Program-made: the position numbers and the translations under genes
Shown: positions 14,325 through 33,256 of the stretch, piece by piece
Layout: the number at the start of each line of letters is the position of its first letter
Position numbering within the stretch: position 1 is the first letter of the stretch
The notes under the pieces: generated by a model
Told to the model about the DNA's origin: nothing
What the model saw: the letters and a program-made list of their open reading frames with translations, nothing else
Databases searched by the model: none
Assembly: GCA_003149565.1 (NCBI GenBank)
Contig: QCWH01000007.1
Location: forward strand, 1 to 64,000
Direction: 5' to 3'
Length of the DNA stretch: 64,000 bases
Source of the DNA: Marivita sp. XM-24bin2
GTDB lineage: Bacteria; Pseudomonadota; Alphaproteobacteria; Rhodobacterales; Rhodobacteraceae

Positions 14325-14379
14325 GTCATTTCCTCTCGGTTGGGGTTGGGTCGCTCCGTTACCGGAGTCTTTATTGTGG

Positions 14380-17125: not shown

Positions 17126-17143
17126 TTGTAGCGATTGCTACAA
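17126..17143. promoter_or_regulatory. 18-base dyad, candidate RpiR operator
   Basis: TTGTAGC-GATT-GCTACAA is a perfect 7-base inverted repeat in the divergent region between the amidohydrolase operon and the rpiR gene, ending 13 bases before the regulator's ATG. An additional GTAGCA/TGCTAC pair overlaps it (17120-17141). This is a natural site for autoregulation and control of the TRAP operon by the SIS-domain regulator. Confidence 0.6.
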
Positions 17144-17156
17144 AAGGCGTCAGGCG

Positions 17157-18023
17157 ATGGCGAAACATCTTTCGGTCAAGGACAGGCTGCACGAACATGC
17201 CGGTGCTCTGACGCCAGCAGAGCGGCAATTGTCGAGCGTCCTGATGCGCGACTATCCGGTGGGTGGGCTGCAATCCATCACCCGCATTGCTGAAGCGGCG
17301 GGTGTTTCGACACCCACGGTCATCCGGCTGGCGCGCAAGCTGGGCTTCGACGGGTTCCCGGAGCTGCAGGCCGCGATGCGCGACGAGGCGTCGGAACAGT
17401 TCAAGACGCCCATTCGCAAGCGTGAAGGATGGGGGGATACCAAACCGGCATCAGCGGCGTTCACGGCTTTTGCGGAAGCGGTGTTCGACAACCTGAGCCG
17501 GACCATCGACCGGCTGGAGCCTGGCACGCTGGACGCCATCGCAGGGGTTCTGGCAGACCGACAAAGGCCGGTTTACCTATCGGGCGGGCGGATCACGCGA
17601 TCCAACGCGGATTACTTCTACAACCACCTTCAGATCGTCCGCCCAGGCGTGACATTGCTGGGGGCTTCTCCCAACGTCTGGCCGCAATATATTCTGGACA
17701 TGGACCGCGCGTCGGTTCTGATCCTGTTCGACATTCGGCGCTATGAGCGGGACCTGGAGCGCCTGGCCGAGTTGGCGAAAGAGCGGGGAGCGGAAATTAT
17801 CCTGTTCACCGATCAATGGGGATCACCGATCTCGCGTCTTGCCGATCACGTGGTGAATGCGATGATCGAGGTGCCATCGAGTTGGGATTCGACGCTGGCG
17901 ATCAACCTGATCATCGAAGCTTTGATAGCGGAGGTTCAGACCCGCGTGTCTGATAGCGCGCGGGAGCGGATCGAGGCGCTGGAGGACATGTTCCGGTCAA
18001 CGCGGATTTTCCGGAAGCCTTAG
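17157..18023 (+). CDS. MurR/RpiR-family transcriptional regulator
   Basis: A 288-residue regulator. Residues 1-80 form the HTH_6 domain (ALTPAERQLSSVLMRDYP, GVSTPTVIRLARKLGFDGFPELQ); residues about 130-270 form a SIS domain (RPVYLSGGRITRSNADYF, SVLILFDIRRYERDLERLAELAKERGAEIILFTDQW), which usually binds a phosphosugar or other small effector. It is divergent from the TRAP/gamma-glutamyl operon and its stop overlaps the convergent EamA gene by four bases. Confidence 0.92.
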   Translation: MAKHLSVKDRLHEHAGALTPAERQLSSVLMRDYPVGGLQSITRIAEAAGVSTPTVIRLARKLGFDGFPELQAAMRDEASEQFKTPIRKREGWGDTKPASAAFTAFAEAVFDNLSRTIDRLEPGTLDAIAGVLADRQRPVYLSGGRITRSNADYFYNHLQIVRPGVTLLGASPNVWPQYILDMDRASVLILFDIRRYERDLERLAELAKERGAEIILFTDQWGSPISRLADHVVNAMIEVPSSWDSTLAINLIIEALIAEVQTRVSDSARERIEALEDMFRSTRIFRKP

Positions 18024-18847
18024 CTGAGCGCGAGGATCATCACGCCAAGGGCGACGACAAAAGCGGCGATCAGGCGACGGTTGGCGGGGCCTTCACGAAG
18101 CCAGATGACTCCGATCAGTGCTGCGAATATAACTGACGTTTCCCGCACCGCTGAGACAATCCCAATGGGGGCGAGGGTTTTGGCGAACAAAGCCAGTCCA
18201 TAAGCGAGGCCGGAGATGAGACCGCCTGTAAGGCCGAGGACCAAGGAGCGCTGGCCGATTTTGCGGGCGCGGTTGAAACGTGTGGCAATAACGAACACGG
18301 CCACGAAAATCTCGGCAGCGAACAGCCAGACGACATAGCCGATGGGCGCGCCCGACACCCGGATGCCGATGCCATCGACAACGGAATAGGCCGCGATAAC
18401 TGCCGAGGTGACAAGGGCCGCCGCGATTCCCCGTTTGTCGGCGTGCCGGATAGCGGCCAGCACCATGATCCCGGCAGACACGGTGAGGATGCCGATCCAC
18501 GCCCAAAGCGACAGGGACTCGTCTGCCCAGACCATCGCACCCAAGGCGACCATCACCGGGGCGGTACCCCGCGCGATTGGGTAGATCAGCGACAGGTCGC
18601 CAAAGCGGTACGCGATATTGAGGCCATAGTAATAGGCCCAGTGGATCACCGTGGAAGCGATGATGAAGGGAAACGCCTCGGCTGCCGGAATGGGGACAAA
18701 GGGCAAGAGGGCGAGAGCGGGCAGGCAATGGCCTGTCGCCACCAGTCCCAGCGTGATCGCGCGGTCGCCCGAGGTCTTGACCAGCGCGTTCCAAAGCGCG
18801 TGGAGCAGCGCAGCCAGCAGCACGATGAGAAGGACAGTGGTGCTCAC
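18020..18847 (-). CDS. EamA/DMT-family transporter
   Basis: A 275-residue inner-membrane protein with ten hydrophobic segments and two EamA halves (LLHALWNALVKTSGD at the start, DLSLIYPIARGTAPV, and in the second half AFAAL/VSAVRETSVIFAALIGVIWLREG). Start is GTG 18847, coupled to the pbfA stop (GTGA). As last gene of the phosphonate operon it may move a phosphonate or a product such as an amino acid; most studied DMT members are exporters, so the direction is open. Confidence 0.85.
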   Translation of the reverse strand: MSTTVLLIVLLAALLHALWNALVKTSGDRAITLGLVATGHCLPALALLPFVPIPAAEAFPFIIASTVIHWAYYYGLNIAYRFGDLSLIYPIARGTAPVMVALGAMVWADESLSLWAWIGILTVSAGIMVLAAIRHADKRGIAAALVTSAVIAAYSVVDGIGIRVSGAPIGYVVWLFAAEIFVAVFVIATRFNRARKIGQRSLVLGLTGGLISGLAYGLALFAKTLAPIGIVSAVRETSVIFAALIGVIWLREGPANRRLIAAFVVALGVMILALS

Positions 18848-20196
18848 CCGGTGGTCCGGATCGCGCCGATGACGATGTTTAGGGCTGTGTCCAGATCGGC
18901 TTCGGAGATCACCAGCGGTGGCGATAAGGTCAGTACATTACCCGCGCTGATCTTGAAGCTGAGACCCTTGTCGAGGCAGGCATAGTAAATGCGTTCTGCG
19001 CGGTCGGGGTCAGGGGTGCGGCTGTCGCGGTCGGATACGATCTCGACACCGAACATGAGACCTCGTCCGCGAATGTCTCCGACATTTGGATGATCGTGCA
19101 GCGCATCTTTCAGGCGGTCCTGTGCATCGGCACCAAGAATGGCGGAGCGGTCAACCAGACCTTCGTCTTCGATGATGTCGAGCGTGGTCAGCGCAGCCCG
19201 GGCGGTGACGGGGTTTTTCTCGTGCGTGTAGTGGCCGATGGCGAAGTCGCCCGCGACGTTCAGATCGTCCCGCGCGATGATCCCGGCGATGGGGAGCATG
19301 CCGCCACCAAGCGCCTTGCCGAGAACCACGATGTCCGGTTCGATCCCGTCGTGGTCGAAGGCGAACATCTTCCCGGTCTTGCCGAGCCCTGTGGGGATCT
19401 CGTCCATGATCAGCAGCGCGCCGTGTTTGCGGCACGCGGCCTGAACGGCTTGCCAATAGCCCGGCGGGGGGACGACCGGAACGGCGCGCATCGGTTCGGC
19501 GATGACGGCGGCCACGTCTTCTTCGCGGGCCAATGCGAATTCGACCATCTTGGCGCAGGCGAGGGCGCAGGTTTCCGGGCCAGGGTGTCCGTAGGCGCAG
19601 TGGTAGCAGTGGAAGGGTGCGACGTGTTCCGCACCCGGCAGGAGCGGACCGGCGATGTGGCTGCGGAAGGTGGCTTCACCCCCAACGCTGGACGCGCCAA
19701 ACCCTGCGCCGTGGAACGCGTCCCAGAAGCTAATCGTCTTGAAGCGACCTGTGGCGGCGCGGGCAAGGCGCAGGGCGACTTCGACAGCGTCAGACCCGCC
19801 GGTGGTGAAGAGAACGCGGCTAAGGTCGCCGGGCGCGATTTGGCACAGCCGCTCGGCCAATGTGACGGAGACGTCATTTGTGAACCGTCGGGGAGAGAAC
19901 GGTAGCGCGTCGATCTGGTCTTTCACGGCCTGTACAAGGCGCGGGTGGCCATAGCCGATGTGGTGCACCGAGTTGCCGTGAAAATCCATGAATCGGCGAC
20001 CGCTGGTGTCCTCGATCCAGATGCCTTCGGCCTTGGCGATGGTCGACAGGCACGGGGACGACAGCGACTGATGCAGAAAGGCGTTGGCATCCCGTGCGAG
20101 CAGATCGCGGGTTGCGTTGTGCGTTTCGCGCGAAGCCCATTCGGCCCGCGCGGCGCTGGTGTTGGCCTCGCCCTCGGTGTGCCGTGTTACGGCCAC
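18844..20196 (-). CDS. pbfA: PbfA-like (R)-1-hydroxy-2-aminoethylphosphonate ammonia-lyase
   Basis: A 450-residue PLP enzyme of class III aminotransferase fold: [68 protein letters not shown] lysine in [10 protein letters not shown] and [15 protein letters not shown]. Within phnWAY operons this type is PbfA, which eliminates ammonia from (R)-1-hydroxy-2-aminoethylphosphonate to give phosphonoacetaldehyde, widening the operon beyond 2-AEP. An aminotransferase role cannot be excluded by eye. The start is GTG 20196, overlapping the phnY stop; the frame is open further upstream only inside phnY. Confidence 0.78.
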
Positions 20197-21626
20197 GGCA
20201 GGGAGTATGTCTTGACGTTGGTGAAGAACTTCATCGCTTCGATGACGCCTTCCTTTACGCCGTTGCCGCTGTCCTTGATACCGCCGAAGGGGGACATTTC
20301 GATCCGGTAGCCCGGCTGTTCCCAGATGTTGCAGGTGCCGACGTTGAGCCCGTTGATATAGGCAATCGCACGGTTCAGGTCGTTCGTGCAAACACCCGAG
20401 GACAGGCCGAAATCGGTGCTGTTGGAAATGCGCATGACCTCTGCGTCGTTGTCGGGCACACGAACGATGGGGATGATCGGACCGAAGGTTTCCTCCATCA
20501 CCAGTTCGCTGTCATGGGGCACGTGATCGACCACGATGGGCGGCAGCAGTGCGCCTTTGCGGCCGGGATCATAGAGCACTTTGGCACCTTGGTCGGCGGC
20601 CATGTAAACGCGCTTTTCGAACAGTTCGGCGGCTTGAGCGTGGATCACGCAGCCCAGTTCGGTTGCCGGGTCCTGCGGATCGCCGAATTTGATCTTTTTG
20701 GCTTTCTCGACCACCAGCGGTACGAATCTGTCCGCAACGCTTTCCTGCACGAGGATGCGTTTGATCGCGGTGCAGCGCTGGCCTGAGTTGCCGGTGGCAC
20801 CCGCGACGGCGATGGTCGCGGCCTTGTCGAGATCGGCATCGCTCAGGTCATTGCAGACGATCAGAGGATCATTGCCGCCGAGTTCCAGCGCGGTCCGTTT
20901 GTAGCCCGCTTTGGAGGCGATGAGTTTGCCGACAGGAACGCCGCCGGTGAAGGTGATGATGTCGATATTCGGGTTCGTCACCATCTCGTCGCCGATATCG
21001 GCGGGCATGCCGGTGACGACCTGGAACATTTCGGGCGGCAGGCCTGCTTCGTACAGGATATCCGCCAAGGTCAGCGCCGTAAGTGGAGTCAGTTCCGTGG
21101 GCTTGCACACCATGCAGTTGTTGGTCGCAATCGAGGGGGCGATCTTGTGGCTGACCATGTTCAGCGGGTGATTGAACGGGGTGATCGCGCTGATGGCGCG
21201 GACGGGTTCGCGCATCGTGAAGATCTTGCGCGCCTTTCCGTTATGGGTGAGGTCACACGAGAAAATCTCGCCATCGTCCTTGAGGGCCTCGGCGGCGGCG
21301 AATTGATAGACGTCCTGCGCGCGCTTGGTCTCGTAGATCGAGTGCTGGTGGCAGATGCCCAGTTCCAGCGTCAGCCATTTGGCAAGATAGTCGCGACGTT
21401 CACCAATCAGTTGTCCTGCGCGTTGCAGGATTTGGCTGCGTTCGTAACGGGTGAGCTTCGGTGTATAGTTCGCGGCAATCTCGAACGCGCGGCAGGCGTG
21501 TTCGGCGGTGCCCATCGGGACGGTGCCGATCACCTCGTCGGTGTAGGGGTAACGCACCTCAAGCCGCGCATCGGTGTCGACCTTTTCCCCACCGATGCGC
21601 ATCTGTTCGTGACGGATTTCGGTCAT
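20187..21626 (-). CDS. phnY: Phosphonoacetaldehyde dehydrogenase
   Basis: Oxidises phosphonoacetaldehyde to phosphonoacetate with NAD+. The 479-residue ALDH-superfamily protein has [16 protein letters not shown] in the cofactor domain, [12 protein letters not shown], catalytic Glu in ALELGGNDP, catalytic Cys in [12 protein letters not shown] and [12 protein letters not shown]. Assignment to PhnY rather than a general ALDH comes from position between phnA (4-base overlap) and pbfA in a phnWAY operon. Confidence 0.92.
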
Positions 21627-22882
21627 GCGGGCACCTCTTCCAGCGCGGCGGCGGTTGTGGCGTAGAAGAACGCATCGAAGTTGCGCAGCGTCGGCGCATT
21701 GGGCAGGTCGATCACGCGGTTCACGATGAACGGCACTTCCTGTTCGGTCAGCCCGCCATGGCTGCGCAGCGGTTCCTTAAGCGCGGCAAGGTCGTGGCGG
21801 TGGGCAGAAGTACCGATGGTCATGTTCTCGGTTGAGATCATGACGATGTCGCCGATGCGATCTGCAGGGAGTTCGTATTTCTCGACAGCGGTGGCCTTGT
21901 CCACAACTTCGAGCATTTCCGGCAAAGAGCGCAGGCGGGCGATGATGTCGGCCTGATCTGCGCCCGAAGGCAGGTAGGCGGTGGCGAACGACCCCAGCGC
22001 GCCATGGTGCACCACATACGGGTCTGTGATCGGCAGGATCACTCGAGCGGCAGCCTCGCCCAGCCACTCGTCAAGCACATCCTGAACGTAGATCACGGCC
22101 GGATCACCATTGGCGTCATGTTTGGGCTTCATGCCGTGATCGGCGGTGACGACGATGGCCGCGCCCATGGCGTCAAGCTCTGTCAGGTAGCGGTCGAACA
22201 TCGCGTAGAAGTCTTTGGCGCCCTGTTCATCAGGGGCGAACTTGTGCTGGATGTAATCGGTGGTGGAGAGGTACATCACGTCCGGTTTCCACTCTTTCAG
22301 CAGCTTTACGCCGGCGGCAAAAACGAATTCCGACAGGTCGGCAGAGTAGACCTCGGGCACCGGCATGCCCAGCCAGTCGGACGCCTTGTCGACGCCGTGC
22401 TCTGCTTTGGTCGTGTCGCCGGAACGCTCGGACGAAAACGCAATGGCGCGGTCTTCGTCGAACTTCAGGCCAGCCCCCAGCAACGCACGCAGCTTGTCCT
22501 TGGCGGTGACAACGGCGACCCGCGCACCGGCGTCGTAGAACTTGGAGAACACGGTGGGCGCGCGCAGGAAGCGGACGTCGTTCATCATGACTTCCTGACC
22601 GGTCTCCGGCTCGTAAAGGAAGTTGCCACAAATGCCGTGCACCGCAGGAGGACGGCCTGTGGCGATGCTCATGTTGTTGGGGTTGGTGAAGGAGGGGATC
22701 ACCGAATGAGCCAGCCGGTCTGTGCCGGTTTCGCGGATGCGTTTGAGCGTCGGCATCAGCCCTTCGGCGATGGCCACTTCAAGGTATTCGGGTTCGCAGC
22801 CATCCAGACAGATCGCAATCGCGCAGGTCTTGGGCGCGGGGTAGGTGCGGTCATTGGCGACCACGGGGTTCTTAATCGGCAT
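21623..22882 (-). CDS. phnA: Phosphonoacetate hydrolase
   Basis: Cleaves the C-P bond of phosphonoacetate to acetate and phosphate. The 419-residue alkaline-phosphatase-superfamily protein shows the metal Asp in CLDGCEP, the Thr nucleophile region [16 protein letters not shown], the [11 protein letters not shown] metal site, [12 protein letters not shown] and a late His ([12 protein letters not shown]). No signal peptide, so cytoplasmic. Lies between phnW (10-base gap) and phnY (overlap). Confidence 0.93.
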
Positions 22883-22892
22883 ATCTCTTCCT

Positions 22893-24074
22893 TCAGGCGG
22901 CGAGTTTCTTGCGTTCTTCCAATGCGGCGGCGGGCGGAGCAGCGCTGCTTACGTTCATGTCGGTCAGGGCGTCGCGGGCGGCGTCCACCACGCGGCGCAT
23001 CACGTGTTCGTCCATCTGCCCGATCACCCCGATGCGGAAGCTGTCTACGACGGTCAGCTTGCCGGGGTAAATGATGAAGCCGCGTTGCTTCATGGCGTCA
23101 TAAAAGCCCTGAAAGGTAAAGTTCGGATCGGCGGGGCAGAAGAAGGTCACGATAATCGGGCTGAGCCAGCGGTCAGCGAGCAGGGTTTCAAAACCCATAT
23201 CGCGCATGCCCTGCACCATCACATCGCGGTTGCGGGTATAGCGTGCGCCACGGGCGGGCACACCGCCCTCGGCCTCGTGCAGATCGAGCGCCTTGAGGAA
23301 GGCGGCAACCACATGGGTCGGGGGCGTAAAGCGCCACTGGCCGGTTTTCTCCATCGTCGCCCATTGCGCGTGTACGTCGAGCGACAGGGAGTGGGAGTTG
23401 CCTTTGGAGGCCTCGATCTCGTCCTTGCGAGCGATGACAAAGCCAAAACCCGGGACACCTTCGATACATTTGTTGGCCGACGACACAAAGGCGGCGCAGT
23501 TGAGTTTGACCGGGTCAAGCGGCAGGGCGCCAAACGCCGACATGCTGTCGATCAGGAGTTTGCGCCCGGCAGCTTTGGTTGCCTCGGCAATCTCTTCGAC
23601 CGGGTTTTGAATACCGCTTGAGGTTTCGCAATGGATCGCCAGCACATGGGTGATGGCGGGGTCATTGGCGAGGATGGACGCGACTTCATCGCCACGCGGG
23701 GGCAGGTAATCGCCCTTGTCGAGCAGATGGTAGGCGCGGCCAAGGTAGTCGAGCGTTTGTGCTGCGCGCAGACCGTAGGCACCATTAGCCAGAACCAAAA
23801 CTTTACCATCCCGGGGCACGAAACTGCCCAGCATCGCTTCAACGCAATAGCTGCCGGAGCCCTGGATGGGCACGCAGTCATAGGCGTCCTTGCCTTCGCC
23901 GACCAGGGCCAGCAGGCGGGATCGCAAGGAACGGGTCATCGCCCGAAAGTCGTCGTCCCAACTGCCCCAGTCTTTGAGCATAGCCTGCTTCACGGAATAA
24001 GCCGTGGTCAGCGGGCCGGGGGTCAGAAGATAGGGCTCCCCAAGTTCCGGGGCAGGCAGCGGAGTAGCAGACAT
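22893..24074 (-). CDS. phnW: 2-aminoethylphosphonate-pyruvate transaminase
   Basis: Transfers the amino group of 2-AEP to pyruvate, making phosphonoacetaldehyde and alanine. The 393-residue class V aminotransferase has LLTPGPLTT at the start, [26 protein letters not shown] and the PLP lysine in [15 protein letters not shown], a PhnW signature. I set the start at ATG 24074 (GGGAAC upstream); the extension to 24125 is not PhnW-like. First gene of the operon phnW-phnA-phnY-pbfA-EamA, behind the LysR-type box at 24153. Confidence 0.94.
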
Positions 24075-24152
24075 GGCGCGTTCCCAAAGCTGGTGTGGTT
24101 TTGGATATGCGGTGCAATCTGGCATATGTAAAATCTTTGTTCTCTATTATTT

Positions 24153-24169
24153 TATAGGCCTAACCTATA
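24153..24169. promoter_or_regulatory. LysR-type operator (copy 1), phnW/lysR intergenic
   Basis: TATAGG-CCTAA-CCTATA is a 6-base inverted repeat that contains a canonical T-N11-A LTTR box (TAGG-N5-CCTA, T24155 to A24167). It lies 79 bases upstream of phnW and 26 bases upstream of lysR. The same TAGG-N5-CCTA core recurs at 25082-25096 before the ester hydrolase gene. Confidence 0.7.
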
Positions 24170-24194
24170 TAAGATCGCTGCGAATGGAGGTCCT

Positions 24195-25064
24195 ATGCGG
24201 TATAGTCAGTTACGTGCGTTTCATCACGTCGCCCTGCATGGCGGCTTTTCCCGGGCGGCGCGCGCATTGAACATCTCGCAACCATCTGTCTCGGACCAAG
24301 TGCGTCAACTTGAGCAACGCCATGATGTGCTTTTGTTCACACGCGAAGCGCGGCAAGTGAAAATGACGGATGCCGGTGAGGCACTCTTTCGATTGACCAG
24401 CGAGATGTTCGAGGTTGAGGAGCGCATCAGCGCATTGTTTGATGAAAACCGGGCGGCCTTGTCCGGCCATCTGCGTATTATGGCAGATTCTGCGATGCAT
24501 ATCACAGATGCGGTGCGACGCTTTCGCGAAACCAGCCCAAACGTCTTTGTGACCATTCGCACCGGTAATACAGAAGACCTGCTGCGACGCCTCAGAAATT
24601 ACGAGGCTGAGATTGGGGTCGTGGGTAACGCGATTTCTGCGCCGGATCTCGACAGTGTGGATTTGGGACGAACCCCAATCCTCGCATTGGTGGCCAAAGA
24701 TCACTTGCCAAAAGAGACGCGCAGTCTGCGTTTCCGGGATCTTTCCTCCGTCCCGCTGATCTACCGGGAGATTGGATCGCGCACGCGTGCTTTGGTCGAA
24801 GAACAGGCTGACCGTTTGGGTCTGTCATTGGTTCCGTCAATTGAAGTCGAAGGACGAGAGGCGATGCGCGAGGTGGTCGCTTCTGGCGCAGGCATTGGCT
24901 TTATCAGCGAGGCGGAGTTTGGACATGACCGGCGGCTTAGGGCCATTCCATTTGAAGACGTCGATCTTGGCATGTCTGAGTCTCTTGTGACGCTTTCCGC
25001 GCGGAGGGATGTGCCTTTGATCCGCGGTTTCTTGAAAGCGGTGCAAAAGACTTTGGCTGTATGA
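24195..25064 (+). CDS. LysR-family regulator of the phosphonate genes
   Basis: A 289-residue LTTR with HTH residues 1-60 (RYSQLRAFHHVALHGGFSRAARALNISQPSVSDQVRQLE) and an effector domain ending at the C-terminus. It is divergent from phnW and followed directly by the ester-hydrolase/ABC operon, with a matching dyad on each side of the gene. In Sinorhizobium a LysR gene is likewise next to phnWAY, so a role as activator responding to 2-AEP or a derivative is reasonable (inference). Confidence 0.9.
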   Translation: MRYSQLRAFHHVALHGGFSRAARALNISQPSVSDQVRQLEQRHDVLLFTREARQVKMTDAGEALFRLTSEMFEVEERISALFDENRAALSGHLRIMADSAMHITDAVRRFRETSPNVFVTIRTGNTEDLLRRLRNYEAEIGVVGNAISAPDLDSVDLGRTPILALVAKDHLPKETRSLRFRDLSSVPLIYREIGSRTRALVEEQADRLGLSLVPSIEVEGREAMREVVASGAGIGFISEAEFGHDRRLRAIPFEDVDLGMSESLVTLSARRDVPLIRGFLKAVQKTLAV

Positions 25065-25081
25065 GCTTAAAGCTTGAATGA

Positions 25082-25096
25082 ATAGGTTTTACCTAT
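25082..25096. promoter_or_regulatory. LysR-type operator (copy 2), upstream of the ester hydrolase
   Basis: ATAGG-TTTTA-CCTAT repeats the TAGG-N5-CCTA core of copy 1 with a different spacer, which argues against chance or simple duplication. It lies 17 bases after the lysR stop and 45 bases before the ATG at 25142. Confidence 0.65.
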
Positions 25097-25141
25097 GGAC
25101 ATATATAAATCACTTGTCTTTACATATGAGCCCTGCTTGGC

Positions 25142-26668
25142 ATGATCAAGTCACATCTGGGAATGACCGTGTCACAAGCAAAGCCGAATACCCTGTTCAT
25201 CGTGATTGACCAATTGCGCGCGGATTGCGTTTTTGGTGCGTTGGCGCAGCATCTGAACCTTCCCAATATTCGCGCCTTCGCAGAGGATGCCGTGTCGTTC
25301 CGAAACCACTATTCGGTCACGTCGCCTTGTGGACCTTCCCGCGTGTCTTTGTTGACAGCCCAATATGCGTCAAATCACGGGGCGACGCGCAATGGCACCC
25401 CGTTGAAGCGCGACACGCCAAACCTTGCGACGGTTGCGCGTGACAACGGGTTCGACCCACTGCTGTTTGGATACACAGATACATCGTACGACCCTCGGTT
25501 TTTGCCGGCCGATGATCCGCGACTGTTTTCCTACGAAGAGCTTGCTCCGGGATTTAAAGAGGTGTTGCGCATGCGGCTTGAGGGCGACTCGAGCGCATGG
25601 GAAGCCTATCTTGCTGAGAATGGCTACGATGTGCCGCCTTATCCAGAGATGTACCAACCGGCGGGCGACGCGCCGGACTCGCCCGCACTTTATTCGGCAG
25701 AACACAGCGATACGGCGTTTCTCACTGATCGGACGATTGAGGACCTGAGCCAACGGGAACAAGGTTGGTTCGGGCTGGTCACCTATATCCGGCCACATCC
25801 ACCTTTTGTTGTGCCTGCGCCGTATAATACGATGTACGACGATGCAGCCATGCCGTCCGCGCGTGATGCGCAGGAGCCAGACTGGCATCCCTACGTCGCA
25901 ACGGCTCGCCGGAAAAGCAATGTCGCGTCAACCGTGGTGGGGTTTCCGGATCTTGAGAATTGCGATGCCACGACGCGAATGATCCGAAAACTCTACTTCG
26001 GTTTGGCCACTGAAGTTGATCATCACATTGGACGCATCCTGCAATGGCTCAAGGACACGGATCAATATGATGACACGCTCATCGTTCTGACGGCAGACCA
26101 CGGGGAAATGCTTGGGGACTACGGCCTTTGGGGAAAGATGACCTTCCACGATGCCGCATTCCATGTGCCTTTGATCATCCGTCAGCCGAATGCGTCGGTG
26201 CGTGGGCATATAGTGACCGCGCCAACTGAGTCGATTGATATCACTCCGGCCATTCTTGACTGCCTCGGCCTTAACGCACCGCATTCGATGGACGGCCGGA
26301 GCCTTAAGCCATTCTTGAATGCTGACAACCCGGAGCGGTGGCGCGATGTGTCGGTTTCCGAGCTGGATTTCGGTGACCCCATCCGTCCAACCCTGTGGCA
26401 AACCGAGCATGATTTGTCCGTCGACACGTCGAATTTGGCTGTTCTGCGCCGTGGTCAGATGCGATTCGTGCAATTCGCCGGAGGGCTGCCGCCAATCCTG
26501 ATGGATATTTCAGACGGCACCGAGGATCAGAATTTGGCAAAAAATTCAGCACATTTGCAGACAATGCTTGATTTGATGCAGGATATGCTTTGCCATCGCA
26601 TGGCAAACACCGATGGCACATTTTCGCGAACCCTGATCACCGCAGATGGCGTAAAGGTGGCGTCGTGA
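25142..26668 (+). CDS. Phosphonate monoester hydrolase / sulfatase-family protein
   Basis: A 508-residue alkaline-phosphatase-superfamily enzyme. Metal site DQLRAD near the N-terminus, formylglycine motif C63-G-P-S-R67, then VTYIRPHPPFVVPAPYNTMYDD, and VLTADHGEMLGDYGLWGK. These and the length match the Rhizobium/Burkholderia phosphonate monoester hydrolases (about 514 residues), which cleave phosphonate and phosphate/sulfate esters; arylsulfatase activity is the main alternative. The cysteine must be converted to formylglycine. No signal peptide, so it acts in the cytoplasm. The start may be ATG 25142 or ATG 25163. The link to phn genes (shared dyad) favours phosphonate esters. Confidence 0.8.
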   Translation: MIKSHLGMTVSQAKPNTLFIVIDQLRADCVFGALAQHLNLPNIRAFAEDAVSFRNHYSVTSPCGPSRVSLLTAQYASNHGATRNGTPLKRDTPNLATVARDNGFDPLLFGYTDTSYDPRFLPADDPRLFSYEELAPGFKEVLRMRLEGDSSAWEAYLAENGYDVPPYPEMYQPAGDAPDSPALYSAEHSDTAFLTDRTIEDLSQREQGWFGLVTYIRPHPPFVVPAPYNTMYDDAAMPSARDAQEPDWHPYVATARRKSNVASTVVGFPDLENCDATTRMIRKLYFGLATEVDHHIGRILQWLKDTDQYDDTLIVLTADHGEMLGDYGLWGKMTFHDAAFHVPLIIRQPNASVRGHIVTAPTESIDITPAILDCLGLNAPHSMDGRSLKPFLNADNPERWRDVSVSELDFGDPIRPTLWQTEHDLSVDTSNLAVLRRGQMRFVQFAGGLPPILMDISDGTEDQNLAKNSAHLQTMLDLMQDMLCHRMANTDGTFSRTLITADGVKVAS

Positions 26669-26902
26669 TTTTTTGTGCTGTCACGGACCTGTCACGGTTG
26701 TCAGAGATACAAAACCCGGCTGTTTCGACCGGGTGGACCATGAAAAAGGAGGCGTCACGCCAGAACTTAGGTTTATTCGCGCAACGATCTGCCAACTGAG
26801 TGCGCGAAGTCAGGACCATCCTAAATGACCGGACGTTGAACGGACCGGGAAAAAAGGGGGGGAACAGCCCCCATTCACCACTTGGAACCAACAGGAGATA
26901 AA
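26669..26902 (+). other. Gene-free leader between the hydrolase and the ABC binding-protein gene
   Basis: The 234-base stretch holds two hairpins: ACCCGG/CCGGGT at 26714-26734 (possible weak terminator of the hydrolase gene) and a G-run/C-run stem at 26856-26872 just ahead of the AGGAG site. A lone half-site (TTAGGTTTA) near 26768 lacks its partner, so I do not call a third LysR box. A separate promoter for the binding protein may be here. Confidence 0.4.
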
Positions 26903-28942
26903 ATGAAACGACTTTTACTTTCAGGCGTGGCTTTGATTGCCTTGCCGGCAGCGGCCTATGCCAACTGCCCGGCAGTGACCGTTGCCGATCCGATGGGTGT
27001 CGCAGCTGGAGAATTCCCGCAGCAATACGAACTGAGCGCCTTCCAGGAAGCCGCTGGTTGCACGATGGAGTTTTCTGCAAACCCCGAGATCGAGGCACTG
27101 AATGCTCAGATCAAAGGAAACCCGGATCTGCCTCCTCTTGCGGATCGTATTCCGGCAGAGCCGCTTGTTGTGATCCCCTATGAAAGTATCGGCGAGTACG
27201 GCGGTGAGCTGAACGTTCTGTCCAATGCGACCGAAGCGGGGACTTCTGACTTCTTGTCCGTGCGTCACGTCAGCCTGATGCGCTACTCCGACGATCTGCA
27301 GACCATCGTACCGAATGTCGCAAAATCATGGGAGTGGAATGATGACTTCACCCAGCTGACGATCAAGCTGCGTGAAGGCCACAAGTGGTCGGACGGTGCT
27401 CCGTTCACCAGTGCGGACATCGTGTTCTATCATGACAACCTGATGCTCGACACGAACATCTTTGAGACGCCGAAAGATTATATCACGGTGGCTGGCGAGC
27501 CGATGACGGTTGAGGCACCGGACGATACAACGGTCATCTTCAACCTTCCGGCACCTAAGCCGGGTCTGGTCGCCCACTTTGCGACACACTATTCGCAGCC
27601 GTTCCAGCCCAAGCATTTCCTTGGTCAATTCCACCCGGATGTTAATCCGGACGCGGACGCGTATGCGCAAAGCCTTGGCTTTGAAAACGGATATGACGCG
27701 ATCCTCGCCTATTACGGCAACTCGGATTGGACTGATACGCCAACGCCGATGCTGTCGCGCGCGGACATCGTCGATGGGCTGCCCAAGGCGACGTATCCGA
27801 CGCTTGAATCGCACATCTACATCAGCGACACGACCGAAGGTCGCAAGCTGGTCGCGAACCCGTACTTCTTCCAGGTCGATTCAACAGGACAGCAGCTGCC
27901 CTACATTTCGACCCAAGACGAGCTGTACATCAACGACAACGAGGTCCGTATCCTCAAGCTCGTGAACGGCGAAGTCGACTACAAGTCCCAGTCTCTGCAA
28001 TTGGCCTCGGCGCCGATCTTGCTCGAAAACCAAGAGAAGGGCGATTACACCATCCACCTGCGTCCTGAGATTACAATGGGCGTGTTCGGCTTCAACGTGA
28101 CCCACGAAGACCCGGCCAAGCGCGAAGTCTTCGGAAACCTTGCATTCCGCGAAGCAATGTCGGTGGCCATCAACCGCGCTGAGCTGAACGAGATCGGTTT
28201 CTTCGGTCAGGGCACGCCGCAGCAGTATGTCGGCTTCTCGCCTCTGCCGGAATTCGTTGACCAAAGCTGGCTGCAGTATAAAGCCGAATATGATCCTGAA
28301 GCGGCTAAGGCAGCGTTGGATGAAATTGGCATGGTCGACACGGATGGCGATGGTTTCCGGGAACTCCCCAATGGCGACAAGCTCGTTCTGAACCTGAACT
28401 TCTCTACCCAGGGGATTGCCGGTCAAACCGTTGAACTCGTGGCGCAGAACTGGGCCGATGTTGGCATTCAGTCCGTCGTCAAAGAAGTGACACCGGATGA
28501 ATACCGCTCGGCACAATCCTCGAACCAGTTGGACGTCGTTATGTGGCGCAAGTCGCAGCCGCTGGCCATCGTTCTGGGCAACAATGAGCTGTGGGTGCCG
28601 CCCTACGAAAACTATTTCGGTGTGCGTAATGCGATGCTCTGGGCCGAGTGGATCGACTCTGACGGTGCCGCTGGTGTTGAACCGCCGCAGTGGGCGAAGG
28701 ACATGATTGACGACATCAATGCGCTTCAGTCCGCCGCGCAGGGTACGCCCGAGTTCGAACAACTCGCATCGGACCTCGTTTCGGCAATGGTTGAAAACAT
28801 GATGTTCATCGGGACGGTCAATGCACCTGCGCCGATCTATCAGCAGAACAAGCTGAAGAACTTTGCAGACTTCAAGACGCATTCCTACGAGTACTATCGG
28901 ACCTATCCGTACCGCGCTACGCAGTGGTGGCTGGACGAATAA
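26903..28942 (+). CDS. ABC transporter substrate-binding protein, Opp/Dpp family 5
   Basis: A 679-residue periplasmic protein with a Sec leader (MKRLLLSGVALIALPAAAYA). The SBP_5 core begins near residue 110 with VPNVAKSWEWNDDFTQLTIKLREGHKWSDGAPFTSADIVFYHD. It is about 130-150 residues longer than OppA/DppA; the extra N-terminal part contains two cysteines that could pair. A DTDGDG loop near the C-terminal third resembles calcium-loop motifs seen in this family. Start ATG 26903 follows AGGAG; an earlier in-frame ATG would spoil the leader. The ligand is unknown; a phosphonate ester or conjugate is suggested by context. Confidence 0.88.
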   Translation: MKRLLLSGVALIALPAAAYANCPAVTVADPMGVAAGEFPQQYELSAFQEAAGCTMEFSANPEIEALNAQIKGNPDLPPLADRIPAEPLVVIPYESIGEYGGELNVLSNATEAGTSDFLSVRHVSLMRYSDDLQTIVPNVAKSWEWNDDFTQLTIKLREGHKWSDGAPFTSADIVFYHDNLMLDTNIFETPKDYITVAGEPMTVEAPDDTTVIFNLPAPKPGLVAHFATHYSQPFQPKHFLGQFHPDVNPDADAYAQSLGFENGYDAILAYYGNSDWTDTPTPMLSRADIVDGLPKATYPTLESHIYISDTTEGRKLVANPYFFQVDSTGQQLPYISTQDELYINDNEVRILKLVNGEVDYKSQSLQLASAPILLENQEKGDYTIHLRPEITMGVFGFNVTHEDPAKREVFGNLAFREAMSVAINRAELNEIGFFGQGTPQQYVGFSPLPEFVDQSWLQYKAEYDPEAAKAALDEIGMVDTDGDGFRELPNGDKLVLNLNFSTQGIAGQTVELVAQNWADVGIQSVVKEVTPDEYRSAQSSNQLDVVMWRKSQPLAIVLGNNELWVPPYENYFGVRNAMLWAEWIDSDGAAGVEPPQWAKDMIDDINALQSAAQGTPEFEQLASDLVSAMVENMMFIGTVNAPAPIYQQNKLKNFADFKTHSYEYYRTYPYRATQWWLDE

Positions 28943-28956
28943 AGCCGCGATAATGT

Positions 28957-28987
28957 CGCTGCGGGCAGATCTTGTCTGCTCGCAGCG
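28957..28987 (+). terminator. Stem-loop after the binding-protein gene
   Basis: CGCTGCG/CGCAGCG with an inner GCAGA/TCTGC stem and 5-base loop, no T run, in the 118-base gap before the permease gene. Such 3' hairpins often protect binding-protein mRNA while letting some transcription continue. Confidence 0.6.
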
Positions 28988-29060
28988 GCCTATCCAATGA
29001 CAGTCGTCTGGCAAAAACCCGGGTCAATCGGGACTCAGACATCTAGCAGGGGCACCAATC

Positions 29061-30065
29061 ATGTTGAATTTTGCGCGTTTCGTGCTGACCCGCGCTGTGC
29101 TTGCGATGATCACGCTGGTCATCGTGTCCCTTGTTGTGTTCTCGCTGATGGAATTGGTGCCCGGCGATTGCGCTGAACGCTACCTCGCATTCAAGAACAC
29201 GCAAGGATCTGGCATTTCGGTCGCAGATATCGAAGCCGAGCGCGCGCGCCTCGGGTTGGATCGACCTTTCCTTGAACGCTGGGGCAAGTGGATCGTGAAC
29301 GCATTCCAAGGTGAGTTCGGCGACAGTTGTATCCTCCGTGTGAACATCGCCCAGCTTCTGGGTGACAAGTTCTGGATTTCACTGGGTCTGTGCCTGGCAT
29401 CGCTGGCTCTCGCATATGCCATTGCGCTGCCAGTGGGCATCATTGCTGCAGCGTCGAACAATGCGGTTCTCAACAACTCGCTGCGCCTCTTTAGCTATCT
29501 CGGTCTTGCGATGCCGAATTTCCTGTTGGCGCTGATGATCATGTTGTTCTCTACCGTGTATTTCGGAGACACTCTGACGGGCTTGTTCTCGGCCGAGTAT
29601 CGAGATGCGCCTTGGAGTTTTGACAGACTGCTGGACCTGCTCAGCAATGCGTGGCTTCCAATCTTCATTCTGGGTTGGTCGGCTACGGCATTTGCGCTTC
29701 AAACTGTACGTGCGCTGATGTCTGACGAGATTGGCAAGCTTTACGTTACAGCGGCTGAAGCGCGCGGGGTTCATGGCCGGAAACTGCTCTGGAACTACCC
29801 CGCACGTCACGCACTGGGCCCGATCGTCAACAGCCTTGGCTTTGACCTGAACCGCATCTTCAATGAATTGCCTATCGTGGCTTTGATCCTGACGCTCACT
29901 GAAGCAGGGGCATTGCTTATCGAGGCCTTGGCGCGGTCCAATGACCAGCAGCTTGCAGGTGCCATCATCTTCCTTCTGACCGCGTCCATCGTGACGCTCA
30001 ATTTCCTAACGGATGTGTTGCTGGCGGTGCTTGATCCGCGCGTCCGTAAGAGCATTGTGAGGTGA
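29061..30065 (+). CDS. ABC transporter permease (OppB/DppB type)
   Basis: A 334-residue membrane protein: N-terminal RAVLAMITLVIVSLVVFSLMELVPGD, then six core helices and the EAA-type loop (YVTAAEARGVHGRKLLWNYPARHAL). The pattern LVPGDCAERYL differs from the usual P-G-D-P, and the extra-cytoplasmic part between helix 1 and 2 is typical for DppB. Pairs with the next permease; about 4 bases separate the two genes. Confidence 0.9.
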   Translation: MLNFARFVLTRAVLAMITLVIVSLVVFSLMELVPGDCAERYLAFKNTQGSGISVADIEAERARLGLDRPFLERWGKWIVNAFQGEFGDSCILRVNIAQLLGDKFWISLGLCLASLALAYAIALPVGIIAAASNNAVLNNSLRLFSYLGLAMPNFLLALMIMLFSTVYFGDTLTGLFSAEYRDAPWSFDRLLDLLSNAWLPIFILGWSATAFALQTVRALMSDEIGKLYVTAAEARGVHGRKLLWNYPARHALGPIVNSLGFDLNRIFNELPIVALILTLTEAGALLIEALARSNDQQLAGAIIFLLTASIVTLNFLTDVLLAVLDPRVRKSIVR

Positions 30066-30069
30066 CGCC

Positions 30070-31269
30070 ATGACGACGACACCCGATCCCCATAAGCCCA
30101 ACCTTGCCGAGACGACCGGCCCGCATGTGCAGGTTGTCGAAACCGAGGACGCAGTTAAGCGGCGCTCAAAAGAGGCCTATTTCACAGCGTCTCAGGGGCA
30201 ATTGATCTGGGCACGGTTCAAGAAACAGCGCTCGGCGATGATTGCGGCTTGCGTGTTGGTGTTCCTTGTGCTGTCGGGCATCTTTGCGCCGTTCCTGTCG
30301 CCCTATGATCCGACAATTGCGGGCAAGAATGACGATTACCTGAACGGTGCGCCGCAGGTGCCGATGTTTTGCGACATCAATGGCTGTTCGCTCAGGCCAT
30401 TTGTGCATGCAGTCGAACGCGAACGCTCTTTGGCGACGAACTTTCGCTGGGTGACCACCATCAATGAAGACGAACGCAACTACGTGTATTTCTTCGTGGA
30501 AGGCTGGGAGTACAAGCTGTTCGGGTTCATCCCGATGGACACGCATCTGTTCGGCACCCAAGACGGTTTCGTGCATGTCTTTGGCACCGATGCGAGCGGC
30601 AAGGATATCTTTTCTCGAACATTCCACGCGATTTGGACCTCGCTTCAGGTCGGTACGATCGGGGTGTTCATCGCTTTCGTGCTTGCGCTCGTGATCGGTG
30701 GGGTGTCCGGCTACTATGGTGGTTGGGTAGATTCCATCCTGCAGATGATCACCGATGCCGTTCGAACGGTTCCTGCAATCCCATTGTTCATGGCTGTCGC
30801 TGCTTTCATGCCACCTGAGATGACAGCGGAACAACGGTTCTTCTATATCTCGCTTATACTTGGTCTGATTGGCTGGCCAACCTTGGCGCGACGTGTGCGC
30901 ACACACCTTCTGACCGAGCGGAACCAGGAATACGTTCTAGCGGCGCAGCTGTGTGGAGCGTCATCGGGGCATGTGATCCGTCGGCATTTGCTGCCGAGCT
31001 TCACCAGCTATATCATCGTCGATCTGGTGATTTCCTTTCCGTATATGGTGCTGTCGGAAACAGCGCTTTCTTTCATCGGCCTTGGCCTGAAGGATCCCGT
31101 CAACAGCCTTGGCGTCATGCTCCAGAATGTGACAAGTGCTGATGTTCTACTCAACTATCAATGGTACTTCATCCCGGTGATCTTTTTCATCGCACTGGTG
31201 ATGGCGTTTGTGTTTGTCGGTGACGGCTTGCGCGACGCCGCGGACCCCTACTCGGATAACAACAAATGA
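30070..31269 (+). CDS. ABC transporter permease (OppC/DppC type)
   Basis: A 399-residue permease, longer than DppC (about 300) because of a soluble N-terminus and an insert between helix 1 and the core (about residues 95-170) with two cysteines (MFCDINGCSLRPF). The core has GTDASGKDIFSR, GGVSGYYGGWVDSILQ and the EAA loop YVLAAQLCGASSGHVIRRHLLP. The enlarged insert parallels the enlarged binding protein and may contact it. Overlaps the next ATPase gene by four bases. Confidence 0.9.
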   Translation: MTTTPDPHKPNLAETTGPHVQVVETEDAVKRRSKEAYFTASQGQLIWARFKKQRSAMIAACVLVFLVLSGIFAPFLSPYDPTIAGKNDDYLNGAPQVPMFCDINGCSLRPFVHAVERERSLATNFRWVTTINEDERNYVYFFVEGWEYKLFGFIPMDTHLFGTQDGFVHVFGTDASGKDIFSRTFHAIWTSLQVGTIGVFIAFVLALVIGGVSGYYGGWVDSILQMITDAVRTVPAIPLFMAVAAFMPPEMTAEQRFFYISLILGLIGWPTLARRVRTHLLTERNQEYVLAAQLCGASSGHVIRRHLLPSFTSYIIVDLVISFPYMVLSETALSFIGLGLKDPVNSLGVMLQNVTSADVLLNYQWYFIPVIFFIALVMAFVFVGDGLRDAADPYSDNNK

Positions 31270-32258
31270 GCCTGATCGACGTTCAAAATTTGACGCTCAA
31301 GTTCCGGACTGACGAGGGTTTGATCACCGCGGTCGACAACGTGAGCTTTTCACTGAACAAGGGCGAAGTGATGGGGCTTGTCGGAGAGTCCGGTTCAGGC
31401 AAATCTGTGACCGCAAAATCGTTGATGCACCTGAATGCGCGCAATGCGGTTTACAGCCCTGAAAGCAAGATCACATTGCACACGGATACAGGTCCGGTGG
31501 ATGTCCTGTCCCTGAAGACCCCGCGCGAATTGAATATCGTGCGCGGCGGTGCAGTGTCGATGATCTTTCAGGAACCGATGGCCAGCTTTGCGCCTGCAAT
31601 TACAATCGGCAAGCAAATGGTCGAGCAACTTCAATTGCACGGCGACTATTCAAAAGAGCAGGCCAAGAACATCAGTGTTGAAATGCTCGACCGCGTTGGT
31701 ATCTCCGATGCGTCAAAACGTTTCGATCAATATGCATTCGAGCTTTCGGGCGGTATGCGCCAACGCGCCATGATTGCCATGGCGCTTTCGACACAGCCAA
31801 AACTCTTGATAGCCGACGAACCTACAACCGCGCTGGATGTGACGATCCAGGCGCAGGTGATCGACTTGATGAAAGACCTTGTTTCTGAATTCCACATGGG
31901 GATCGTTTTTATTACGCATGATCTTGGTGTGGTCGCCCAGACCGCAGACAAGGTAAACGTGATGTATCTTGGCCGTATGATTGAGGAGGGCCCGGTTCGC
32001 GAGGTTATTCGCAACCCCAAGCATCCCTACACGCAAGGCCTGTTGGCCGCGCTTCCGAAATTGGATGATCTGGATTCGCCGCTGACACCGGTACCGGGTG
32101 ATATCCCTTCGCCGCTGGAACGTCCGACCGGCTGCGTATTCCACACGCGGTGCTCGAAGGTGGTCGGCGATGTCTGCATGGCCATCGATCCGCAGGAGCG
32201 GCAGATTGAGAATTCACATAAAGTGGCCTGCCATATCTATGACGAGGTACCAGCATGA
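31266..32258 (+). CDS. ABC transporter ATP-binding protein (OppD/DppD type)
   Basis: A 330-residue ATPase: Walker A GESGSGKS, Q-loop FQEPMASFAPAIT, signature LSGGMRQR, Walker B LLIADEPTTALDV, H-loop ITHDLG, and the C-terminal oligopeptide-transporter extension with GCVFHTRCSKV (cysteines that often hold an iron-sulfur cluster). Overlaps both neighbours by four bases. Confidence 0.93.
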   Translation: MSLIDVQNLTLKFRTDEGLITAVDNVSFSLNKGEVMGLVGESGSGKSVTAKSLMHLNARNAVYSPESKITLHTDTGPVDVLSLKTPRELNIVRGGAVSMIFQEPMASFAPAITIGKQMVEQLQLHGDYSKEQAKNISVEMLDRVGISDASKRFDQYAFELSGGMRQRAMIAMALSTQPKLLIADEPTTALDVTIQAQVIDLMKDLVSEFHMGIVFITHDLGVVAQTADKVNVMYLGRMIEEGPVREVIRNPKHPYTQGLLAALPKLDDLDSPLTPVPGDIPSPLERPTGCVFHTRCSKVVGDVCMAIDPQERQIENSHKVACHIYDEVPA

Positions 32259-33256
32259 GTGATGTTCTGATCCGTGCCAAAGGCCTCTCAGTGGGCTTCC
32301 CTATTGGAGGCGGGCTCTTCAACAAACAGGTCCTCAAGGCTGTCGATAATGTGTCTCTCGAAATTGAGAAGGGCTCATTCTTCGGCCTTGTCGGCGAAAG
32401 CGGTTCTGGCAAGACAACGCTTGGACGCGCTTTGCTCAAAGCGGCCCCGATTACCGGCGGTGGCGCGCACTACAGTGATGGTGAGGTGGACTATGACCTC
32501 GAAAACATCACAAAGGAACAACTAAAGGATTACCGCAAGCGGGCACAGCTGATCTTTCAAGATCCCTATGCCGCGCTGAGTCCACGCATGACGGTGCGGG
32601 ACATTATCGCGGAACCGCTCGAAGTTATGGGGCTGACGAAAAATCGCGCTGAAACCGATGCGCGCGTTCGTGAGATCGCCGCGAAGTGCCGGTTGAACCT
32701 AGAGCATCTGCGTCGTTTTCCCCACGCGTTTTCCGGTGGGCAGCGTCAGCGCATCTCTATCGCCCGCGCGCTCGTATCAGCACCGAAATTCATCGTGGCC
32801 GATGAAAGTGTTGCTGCACTGGACGTCTCCATCCAAGCCGATGTGTTGAATCTGCTCAAGCAGATCCAGACTGACATGGGGCTGACGTTCATGTTCATCA
32901 GCCATGACCTTTCAGTTGTGGCTCATACCTGTGACCATGTCGCTGTGATGTATTTAGGACGGCTGGTGGAAACTGCGCCAACGCGCAAGCTTTTCGCTGC
33001 GCCGCGTCATCCGTATACGAAGGCGCTGTTTTCCGCGATCCCATCCCTTGATCCAGATGATCGCGGAACGGCGCAGAAACTGACCGGCGAGATTCCGTCA
33101 CCGACCAATCAGCCACCTGGCTGCAAGTTTCACACCCGTTGTCCGTTTGCCATCGACCATTGCAAACAAGTCGAACCCAAGCTTGAGACAGACGGTACCG
33201 GGCACGATGTTGCCTGCCATCGGTGGAAAGAATTGATGGCTCCTCAAGCGGCCTGA
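32255..33256 (+). CDS. ABC transporter ATP-binding protein (OppF/DppF type)
   Basis: A 333-residue partner ATPase: Walker A GESGSGKTT, FQDPYAALSPRMTV, signature FSGGQRQR, FIVADESVAALDVSIQ (Walker B), ISHDLSVV, and the terminal GCKFHTRCPFA motif. It completes a full five-gene importer and ends exactly against the convergent gene at 33257. Confidence 0.93.
   Translation: MSDVLIRAKGLSVGFPIGGGLFNKQVLKAVDNVSLEIEKGSFFGLVGESGSGKTTLGRALLKAAPITGGGAHYSDGEVDYDLENITKEQLKDYRKRAQLIFQDPYAALSPRMTVRDIIAEPLEVMGLTKNRAETDARVREIAAKCRLNLEHLRRFPHAFSGGQRQRISIARALVSAPKFIVADESVAALDVSIQADVLNLLKQIQTDMGLTFMFISHDLSVVAHTCDHVAVMYLGRLVETAPTRKLFAAPRHPYTKALFSAIPSLDPDDRGTAQKLTGEIPSPTNQPPGCKFHTRCPFAIDHCKQVEPKLETDGTGHDVACHRWKELMAPQAA

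Follow-up and report, generated by a model that had tools for sequence, protein, structure and literature searches.

A predicted import-and-cleave unit for esterified aminoethylphosphonate in Marivita sp. XM-24bin2

Results and discussion

The unit and its proposed route

The window analyzed here (64,000 nucleotides, positions 1 to 64,000 of contig QCWH01000007.1, Marivita sp. XM-24bin2) carries a phn gene set for degradation of aminoethylphosphonate (AEP), next to a LysR-type regulator, a hydrolase of the phosphonate monoester hydrolase (PMH) type and a complete Opp-type ABC importer. We propose that these genes serve to import an AEP ester and then to hydrolyze it, a reading to which we assign a probability of about two in three. 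It is based on the position of a hydrolase that has no signal-like segment beside a complete importer, and in addition on 1) the synteny of PMH, importer and phnW, 2) the D-PMH residues of the hydrolase, 3) a shared putative operator, 4) the tendency of the importer and AepX to exclude each other, 5) Na/Pi-transporter genes near PMH, and 6) two FGE-domain proteins in the strain genome.

In the proposed route, the large binding protein would capture a small molecule that carries AEP (or hydroxy-AEP, or phosphoethanolamine) in ester linkage to a hydroxyl group, probably that of a saccharide or glycerol, and the Opp-type transporter would take in this ester intact. The P-O ester would be cut by the cytoplasmic formylglycine enzyme, the freed AEP would be converted by PhnW, PhnY and PhnA to acetate and phosphate, and hydroxy-AEP would enter via PbfA. 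The LysR protein, whose signal is probably AEP or a derivative, would activate both transcription units via a shared palindrome. Of this route, the sequences show gene content, synteny, active-site type and operator sharing, and the cytoplasmic location of the hydrolase, uptake of the intact ester and its identity, LysR binding with its inducer, and the fate of the alcohol released are inferred.

Profile scores and domains confirmed the gene content of the original prediction (phnW-phnA-phnY-pbfA-EamA, LysR, a PMH-like enzyme and a complete Opp/Dpp-type importer), each gene lying where it had been placed:

18020..18847, minus strand, EamA-family membrane protein (phn_DUF6-like); Pfam EamA; TIGR03340 154 bits, below the cut-off of 288
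18844..20196, minus strand, pbfA; NF049939 673 bits, cut-off 525; start GTG
20187..21626, minus strand, phnY, phosphonoacetaldehyde dehydrogenase; TIGR03250 763 bits, cut-off 636
21623..22882, minus strand, phnA, phosphonoacetate hydrolase; TIGR02335 504 bits, cut-off 408
22893..24125, minus strand, phnW, AEP:pyruvate aminotransferase; TIGR02326 478 bits, cut-off 401
24154..24168, no strand, ATAGG-N5-CCTAT, a putative LysR operator located in the divergent promoter of phnW and lysR
24195..25064, plus strand, LysR-type regulator (AepR-like); phn_lysR TIGR03339 288 bits, below the cut-off of 341
25082..25096, no strand, the same putative operator again, located in the promoter of the hydrolase gene
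25142..26668, plus strand, phosphonate monoester hydrolase/phosphodiesterase of D-PMH type, predicted cytoplasmic; formylglycine precursor Cys63 in CGPSR, Tyr111, Asp113
26903..28942, plus strand, periplasmic solute-binding protein, SBP_bac_5, large type
29061..30065, plus strand, permease 1 (DppB/OppB type)
30070..31269, plus strand, permease 2 (DppC/OppC type)
31266..32258, plus strand, ABC ATPase 1 (OppD type, oligo_HPY)
32255..33256, plus strand, ABC ATPase 2 (OppF/DppF type, oligo_HPY)

Five genes on the minus strand (18020..24125) are thus followed on the plus strand by the LysR gene, the sulfatase-fold hydrolase and the importer, which ends at 33256. PhnW, PhnY and PhnA are adjacent and each scored above its curated cut-off, so that the hydrolytic PhnWAY pathway for AEP is present, and PbfA likewise scored above its cut-off; LysR, EamA and the hydrolase scored under the cut-offs of the named NCBIfam models, though each is clearly related to them. 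In the strain genome, phnW had no other match (1 match, E<=1e-90), and 0 matches to C-P lyase PhnJ (PF06007) were found, the genome being about 96% complete. As we read the sequence, pbfA starts with the GTG at about 20196 and not at the longest-ORF (open reading frame) start. The best full-length match of the hydrolase, 84% identical, was from M. lacus, which places the window in the genus Marivita.

Synteny of hydrolase, importer and phnW

A family survey of 394 genomes (393 genera) used PMH, PhnW and the binding protein as queries, neighbors being counted within 15 kb. A second set, the 80 best loci of the GTDB collection (named loci), contains many short contigs and partly overlaps the first (L041/L171, L042/L174, L043/L183, L044/L186, L045/L190, L047/L192, L048/L200, L049/L199 and L051/L207), so the two sets are not independent. 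PMH was found at 77 places in 74 genomes, PhnW at 74 in 73 and the binding protein at 63 in 61. The binding protein lay near 37 of the 77 PMH places and phnW near 22; conversely, 24 of the 63 binding-protein places had phnW nearby, and 22 of these 24 also had PMH. The two exceptions were G269, in which the binding-protein match covers residues 249-679 only, and G336, in which PMH lies on a different short contig. The binding protein was present in 49/74 genomes with PMH and in 12/320 others. Chance placement in a 4 Mb genome is estimated at less than 1% per pair, and Fisher tests of co-occurrence over the whole sets gave 1e-24 to 2e-32 with phylogeny ignored. Among the named loci, importer genes were found in 56/80 and phn genes in 29/80; the cultured strains Marivita hallyeonensis DSM 29431 and M. 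geojedonensis DPG-138 are among the carriers of the locus. The synteny search that had been called for therefore showed hydrolase, importer and phnW conserved together in other genera, and chance adjacency of the hydrolase, importer and phn genes was rejected on account of this synteny.

Variants of the arrangement were also noticed. On a plasmid of Rhodobacteraceae bacterium SC52, importer, phnW, phnX and PMH stand in one row, so that the module is found together with the PhnX variant of the pathway as well. At seven loci (L050, L185, L206, L210, L213, L227 and L233), pbfA shares the stretch with PMH and no phnW is found in it, which hints at esters of hydroxy-AEP; three of these loci (L185, L210 and L233) are on short contigs, and in the L050 genome phnW is located elsewhere. 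Na/Pi-transporter genes (NF037997) were present in 15/75 family PMH loci and 11/80 named loci, a location that fits phosphate release; an assignment of this neighbor as glycerol-3-phosphate dehydrogenase proved wrong, the gene being a relative of Na/Pi transporters.

Active site and location of the hydrolase

The hydrolase scored 149 bits with Pfam Sulfatase (cut-off 25) and 396 bits with the PehA equivalog model NF045661 (cut-off 900), being a relative of PehA rather than an equivalog. Its closest solved relative was 4upk, named phosphonate monoester hydrolase (562 bits), which we take to be SpPMH of Ruegeria (Silicibacter) pomeroyi; the homologue on the plasmid of R. pomeroyi DSS-3, 53% identical to the hydrolase, is probably this characterized SpPMH. 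The formylglycine motif CxPxR was present as C63-G-P-S-R67, with C, P and R invariant in 8/8 aligned sequences. Tyr111 and Asp113 aligned with Y105 and T107, respectively, of the Rhizobium enzyme RlPMH. According to excerpts of PMC5488252, the HisA position is occupied by His in known arylsulfatases and by Asp in the majority of PMHs ("D-PMHs"), and the LysA position by Lys in arylsulfatases and Tyr in PMHs. The hydrolase thus has the Tyr at LysA and the Asp or Thr at HisA that characterize PMHs, with Asp113 in place of the arylsulfatase His. Among 164 homologous ORFs, a set that includes fragments and duplicates, Asp was found at the HisA position in 115 and Thr or Ser in 3, and the simple motif was not located in 46. 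At the level of sequence, these residues support an active site of PMH rather than sulfatase type, in agreement with the PMH family originally proposed.

The hydrolase start, judged by eye, has no signal-like segment, as had been claimed, so the enzyme is probably cytoplasmic. The strain genome encodes two proteins with the FGE domain, the kind on which maturation of such a hydrolase depends. The part of the literature on RlPMH that was available describes phosphodiesterase and phosphonate monoesterase as its two primary activities. In one phn-importer locus (L083, 9273-11010), it was noticed that the hydrolase matches fall in two distinct ORFs.

A sulfate-ester (sulfatase) or peptide-uptake system lying beside the phn genes by chance would agree with the Pfam Sulfatase domain, with the Opp/Dpp annotation of the importer and with NikA, AppA and DppA structures among the lower fold matches of its binding protein. 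We consider this very improbable, since the best solved match of the hydrolase is a phosphonate monoester hydrolase and the synteny with phn and Na/Pi genes is recurrent; the sulfatase reading of the enzyme itself was discarded because of Asp at HisA and Tyr at LysA.

A putative operator shared by the two promoters

LysR sites follow the T-N11-A rule, which ATAGG-N5-CCTAT fits. The 4.43 Mb strain genome contains exactly 2 such sites, located only in the phnW/lysR and hydrolase promoters, and 1 occurrence of the reversed control pattern. When one mismatch was permitted in the window alone, at least 2 hits were obtained in 5/100 shuffles; both real sites are exact. In all, 44 lysR-phnW intergenic regions and 87 PMH upstream regions could be delimited, the rest being dropped, and at least 8 of the 10 operator bases were present in both promoters of 16 of the 22 loci in which both could be delimited (14/20 without two duplicate contigs), a level reached by about 5% of regions upon shuffling. 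Matches of ATAGGG..CCCAT type that lie 89 to 153 bases upstream of the lysR ORF were read as phnW coding and excluded from the count. Operator offsets were nearly constant in the Marivita loci and the spacer varied; some of these Marivita-type loci are metagenome-assembled genomes named only Rhodobacteraceae or Alphaproteobacteria and assigned to Marivita by similarity. Outside Marivita, a hydrolase-side site of at least 8/10 was found in Boseongicola (L042/L174), Cribrihabitans (L043/L183), L077 and L195; chance could account for the weaker ones. These data support one shared putative operator joining the phnW/lysR and hydrolase units.

Observations that weigh against the proposed route

Several observations speak against import and cleavage of an AEP ester. 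The operator is mostly a Marivita feature, with only 21/87 PMH upstream regions reaching 8/10 (about 5% expected by shuffling), and even in Marivita the intergenic copy often has just 8/10, and 7 in L163. Neighbors sought in the stretch read were Opp-importer, PotD, phn, pbfA, eto, Na/Pi and IMPase genes: none of them was present in 21/75 family PMH loci (6 on short contigs; a narrower importer test had given 24/75), in 10/60 family loci when the hydrolase scored above 340 bits, or in 14/80 named loci, including all 7 Leisingera loci. The locus of the R. pomeroyi DSS-3 homologue was likewise devoid of them; an ABC importer of another kind lies about 7 kb from the homologue. Furthermore, 26/74 PMH genomes had no phnW match, 24/63 binding-protein places were near neither PMH nor phnW, and a PotD-type importer was present in 7/75 family PMH loci. 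Because of the neighborless loci, the PotD-type importers and the PMH genomes devoid of phnW, PMH alone does not imply AEP. When ten selected neighbors were inspected, seven of them beside importers without PMH, none was an enzyme naming the substrate, other ORFs there not being annotated. Also excluded were many recurrent ORFs without a name whose coordinates overlap those of known genes on the opposite strand.

Relation to the AepX importer of free AEP

The model TIGR03261 (phnS2), which we take to represent the AepX family, matched in 23/73 phnW genomes, 22 of them above the cut-off. AepX was present in 7/48 phnW genomes with the Opp-type importer as against 16/25 without it (Fisher p 3e-5), suggesting that the importer behaves as an alternative AEP supply. 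In the strain genome, about 96% complete, the best AepX/PhnS2 score was 227.5 versus the cut-off of 392.75. This tendency to mutual exclusion, with no AepX above cut-off in the strain itself, would also be expected if the importer merely took up free AEP in place of AepXVW and the hydrolase had a separate role. That explanation appears improbable to us, as PMH accompanies the importer at nearly all places beside phnW (the 22/24 above), 13/61 importer genomes have no phnW match, solved relatives of the binding protein mostly bind ligands larger than AEP, and a PhnD-family binding protein, the one above cut-off, is encoded elsewhere in the genome. At L044, AepX and a PhnU2-type permease were observed beside PMH and phnWAY.

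Importer and candidate ligands

The Opp/Dpp-type importer is complete, comprising the SBP_bac_5 protein, two BPD_transp_1 permeases and two ATPases, each with oligo_HPY. The binding protein starts at the ATG at 26903, not at the longest-ORF start, and its N-terminus is hydrophobic and signal-like as judged by eye. By sequence, its best solved relative is SPH1118, described in the portion of PMC9314435 available as a pectin-binding protein. An AlphaFold2 model (mean pLDDT 73.7, pTM 0.73) gave as best fold match SPH1118 with galacturonic acid (query TM 0.77), then 5ipw (called OppA), MelB with melibiose, raffinose or galactinol, and chitin-oligosaccharide binding proteins, followed at lower levels by NikA, AppA, DppA, mannobiose-binding and other proteins. 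Since the closest solved folds mostly bind oligosaccharides, the ester partner may be a sugar; with an identity of only about 18-26% to these folds, the matches hint at a sugar-containing ligand and prove nothing. The phosphonolipid or glyceryl-AEP substrate first suggested thus stands as only one option, the nearest solved relatives of the binding protein pointing mostly to oligosaccharides.

A narrower form of the route is that the unit is dedicated to fragments of phosphonoglycans, a sugar-type Opp importer taking up intact oligosaccharides that carry AEP, hydroxy-AEP or phosphoethanolamine esters, which are then cleaved in the cytoplasm. We regard this as a tentative possibility, somewhat less probable than not; if it is correct, AEP bound to glycans could be used directly by marine bacteria, and a single exchangeable ester module would supply either C-P (phn) or C-O-P (eto) catabolism.

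Two short G+C-rich inverted repeats (26715-26733 and 26856-26872, by eye) were noticed between the hydrolase and binding-protein genes; their involvement in transcript processing or attenuation is possible.

The adjoining ethanolamine cluster

The phn genes are adjoined by a cluster for ethanolamine catabolism (eto), and the neighborhood of interest reaches left to 9324 if it is counted:

9324..10469, minus strand, iron-containing alcohol dehydrogenase (gamma-glutamylethanolamide dehydrogenase-like); Pfam Fe-ADH; position as in the Phaeobacter MED193 eto cluster
10474..11850, minus strand, aldehyde dehydrogenase; Pfam Aldedh; gene order matching that of MED193
11854..13215, minus strand, glutamine-synthetase-like ligase (ethanolamine gamma-glutamylase, ETAGA-like); Pfam Gln-synt_C; NCBIfam GlnA/GGputSyn under cut-off
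13287..17080, minus strand, TRAP transporter (EtoX/EtoW/EtoV-like) and N-formylglutamate-amidohydrolase-like GGAH; Pfam DctP, DctM, DctQ and FGase
17157..18023, plus strand, RpiR-family regulator; Pfam HTH_6 and SIS

RpiR, GGAH, EtoVWX, ETAGA, GAADDH and GETADH were found at 9324-18023 in the published order, as judged from families and order and not from direct comparison with MED193 proteins. The best PDB match of the DctP TRAP binding protein was 4uab (479 bits), a structure which we take to hold bound ethanolamine. In at least 9 genomes, ETAGA lay no more than 15 kb from PMH, a lower bound obtained by comparing 64 selected ETAGA places with 38 of the 77 PMH places and, by contig, 18 ETAGA entries with the other 39. 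Seven loci, namely L209, L207 (the same as L051), L071, L086, L228, L230 and L007, carry eto genes, importer and PMH with no phn gene in the stretch; at L209 the eto genes were recorded without a search for the small TRAP permease, an IMPase-like gene is also present at L007, L228 and L230, and L230 and L007 are both Ruegeria conchae. The hydrolase-importer module is thus not exclusive to AEP. Because PMH and importer adjoin eto genes in the absence of phn in some genomes, and eto adjoins the unit in the window, the substrates probably belong to a class of small AEP and/or ethanolamine diesters; together with the Na/Pi genes, the adjacency suggests diesters with an aminoethyl headgroup, C-P or C-O-P. 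A regulon for esterified AEP, as originally predicted, is partly supported, with the shared putative operator, the synteny and the PMH-type residues in its favor, and it has to be widened in that the module also occurs with eto genes in the absence of phn.

It is conceivable, though in our judgment rather unlikely, that the module is mainly for general salvage of headgroup diesters, i.e., phosphate diesters such as glycerophosphoethanolamine and phosphoethanolamine-substituted sugars, yielding ethanolamine for eto, with AEP esters as analogues and phn as an added outlet. The eto order beside phn, the 4uab match, the ETAGA-PMH proximity, the seven loci above, the recurrence of IMPase, DeoR and Na/Pi genes and the two activities recorded for RlPMH in the literature available are all consistent with it. 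On the other side, phn genes are present in more PMH loci than eto genes (23 vs 9 of 75; 29 vs 15 of 80), and the shared operator ties PMH to phnW and not to the eto cluster. Moreover, ETAGA was present in 251/394 family genomes, so that part of the eto adjacency could be due to chance. Given the phn and operator links, AEP is likely the main product of the proposed import and cleavage in Marivita. Eto genes beside phn genes were also observed in L148 and, in part, L159, from other genera.

Other features of the window and related loci

The phn half of the unit (18020-24125) has a G+C content of 61.9% versus 55.2% in the LysR-hydrolase-importer half (24195-33256), a contrast hinting at assembly from two sources. 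To the left, 539-9210 contains purine/urate-type genes (urate oxidase N-terminal domain, OHCU decarboxylase, ureidoglycolate lyase and xanthine/uracil permease). Directly 3′ of the importer, 33257-38130 encodes an SGNH-domain protein, a glycosyltransferase and a weak O-antigen-ligase match, and a polysaccharide cluster may begin here.

In other genomes, PMH is repeatedly accompanied by some of the genes for DeoR, IMPase-like phosphatase, Na/Pi transporter and EamA (L053, L055, L057, L060, L061, L063, L070, L074, L084 and others); no phn gene is present at these loci, and the importer in reach is of Opp type, of PotD type or absent. They probably represent a related organophosphodiester system. 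A connection with the Pho-regulated PotA/PotD and with GlpR of Phaeobacter MED193 is suspected. In Rhizobium (L009, 10004-17216), Roseibium (L010, 9072-16845) and another genus (L103), a PehA-type hydrolase is the immediate neighbor of an Opp-type importer whose binding protein is a different one, and in Roseibium L010 a regulator annotated PhnF is beside the pair; the hydrolase-importer pairing is thus wider than the Marivita-type unit. At L144, an importer whose binding-protein match is devoid of the first 248 residues stands beside phnWAY with no hydrolase, which looks like decay of the unit.

Comparison with known systems

The Marivita unit is real and conserved, and on sequence evidence an AEP hydrolytic pathway with an ester-importing front end is a well-supported prediction for it. 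Such an import-and-cleave module would explain access to bound AEP without an extracellular enzyme that shares its product with competitors, would provide the promiscuous PMH enzymes, which serve as models of enzyme evolution, with a physiological role, and would link phosphonate and ethanolamine recycling in one marine bacterial gene neighborhood. Phosphonates are built into lipids and glycans, and the AEP transporters described serve AEP itself, according to excerpts of PMC8316502. In the portions of the open-licence PMC literature retrieved, subscription papers being outside the search, we found no AEP cluster described as containing a PMH or an Opp-type importer. The words sulfatase and oligopeptide do not occur in PMC8154272 (main text), PMC12366243 and PMC10590968, oligopeptide and monoester do not occur in PMC10574752, and oligopeptide does not occur in PMC8316502 and PMC9381506.

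The hydrolase resembles 4upk, RlPMH (2vqr) and PehA in fold family, formylglycine motif and PMH-type active-site residues, and the binding protein has SPH1118, MelB and chitin-oligosaccharide binding proteins among its closest folds, at the low identity given above. As in the Marivita unit, pehA (RlPMH) on Rhizobium pRL9, presumably pRL90232, directly precedes an Opp-type importer; unlike it, the R. pomeroyi and Rhizobium PMH loci contain no phn genes within the stretches read.

As far as the excerpts of the published accounts go, the unit shares with the PhnW-PhnY-PhnA hydrolytic pathway with PbfA (Zangelmi et al. 2021, PMC8154272) the same four enzymes, all above curated cut-offs, and differs in adding an ester hydrolase and an Opp-type importer. 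With the AepXVW, AepP and AepSTU importers (Murphy et al. 2021, PMC8316502, seen in part), it has in common an ABC importer adjoining LysR and phnWAY, whereas the Marivita importer consists of SBP_bac_5 and two oligo_HPY ATPases and comes with a hydrolase. The sections consulted of Sosa et al. 2017 (PMC5649143) postulate release of phosphonates from marine polysaccharide esters by alkaline-phosphatase-like enzymes and mention a PMH relative in Sulfitobacter; that hypothesis concerns methyl- and hydroxyethylphosphonate and C-P lyase, with no importer or PMH-phn gene cluster in those sections. Finally, the gene order at 9324-18023 is the same as that for eto catabolism in Phaeobacter MED193 (Westermann et al. 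2023, PMC10132767); in MED193, as described in the excerpts available, the headgroup is freed outside the cell, whereas in Marivita we propose that import would come first.

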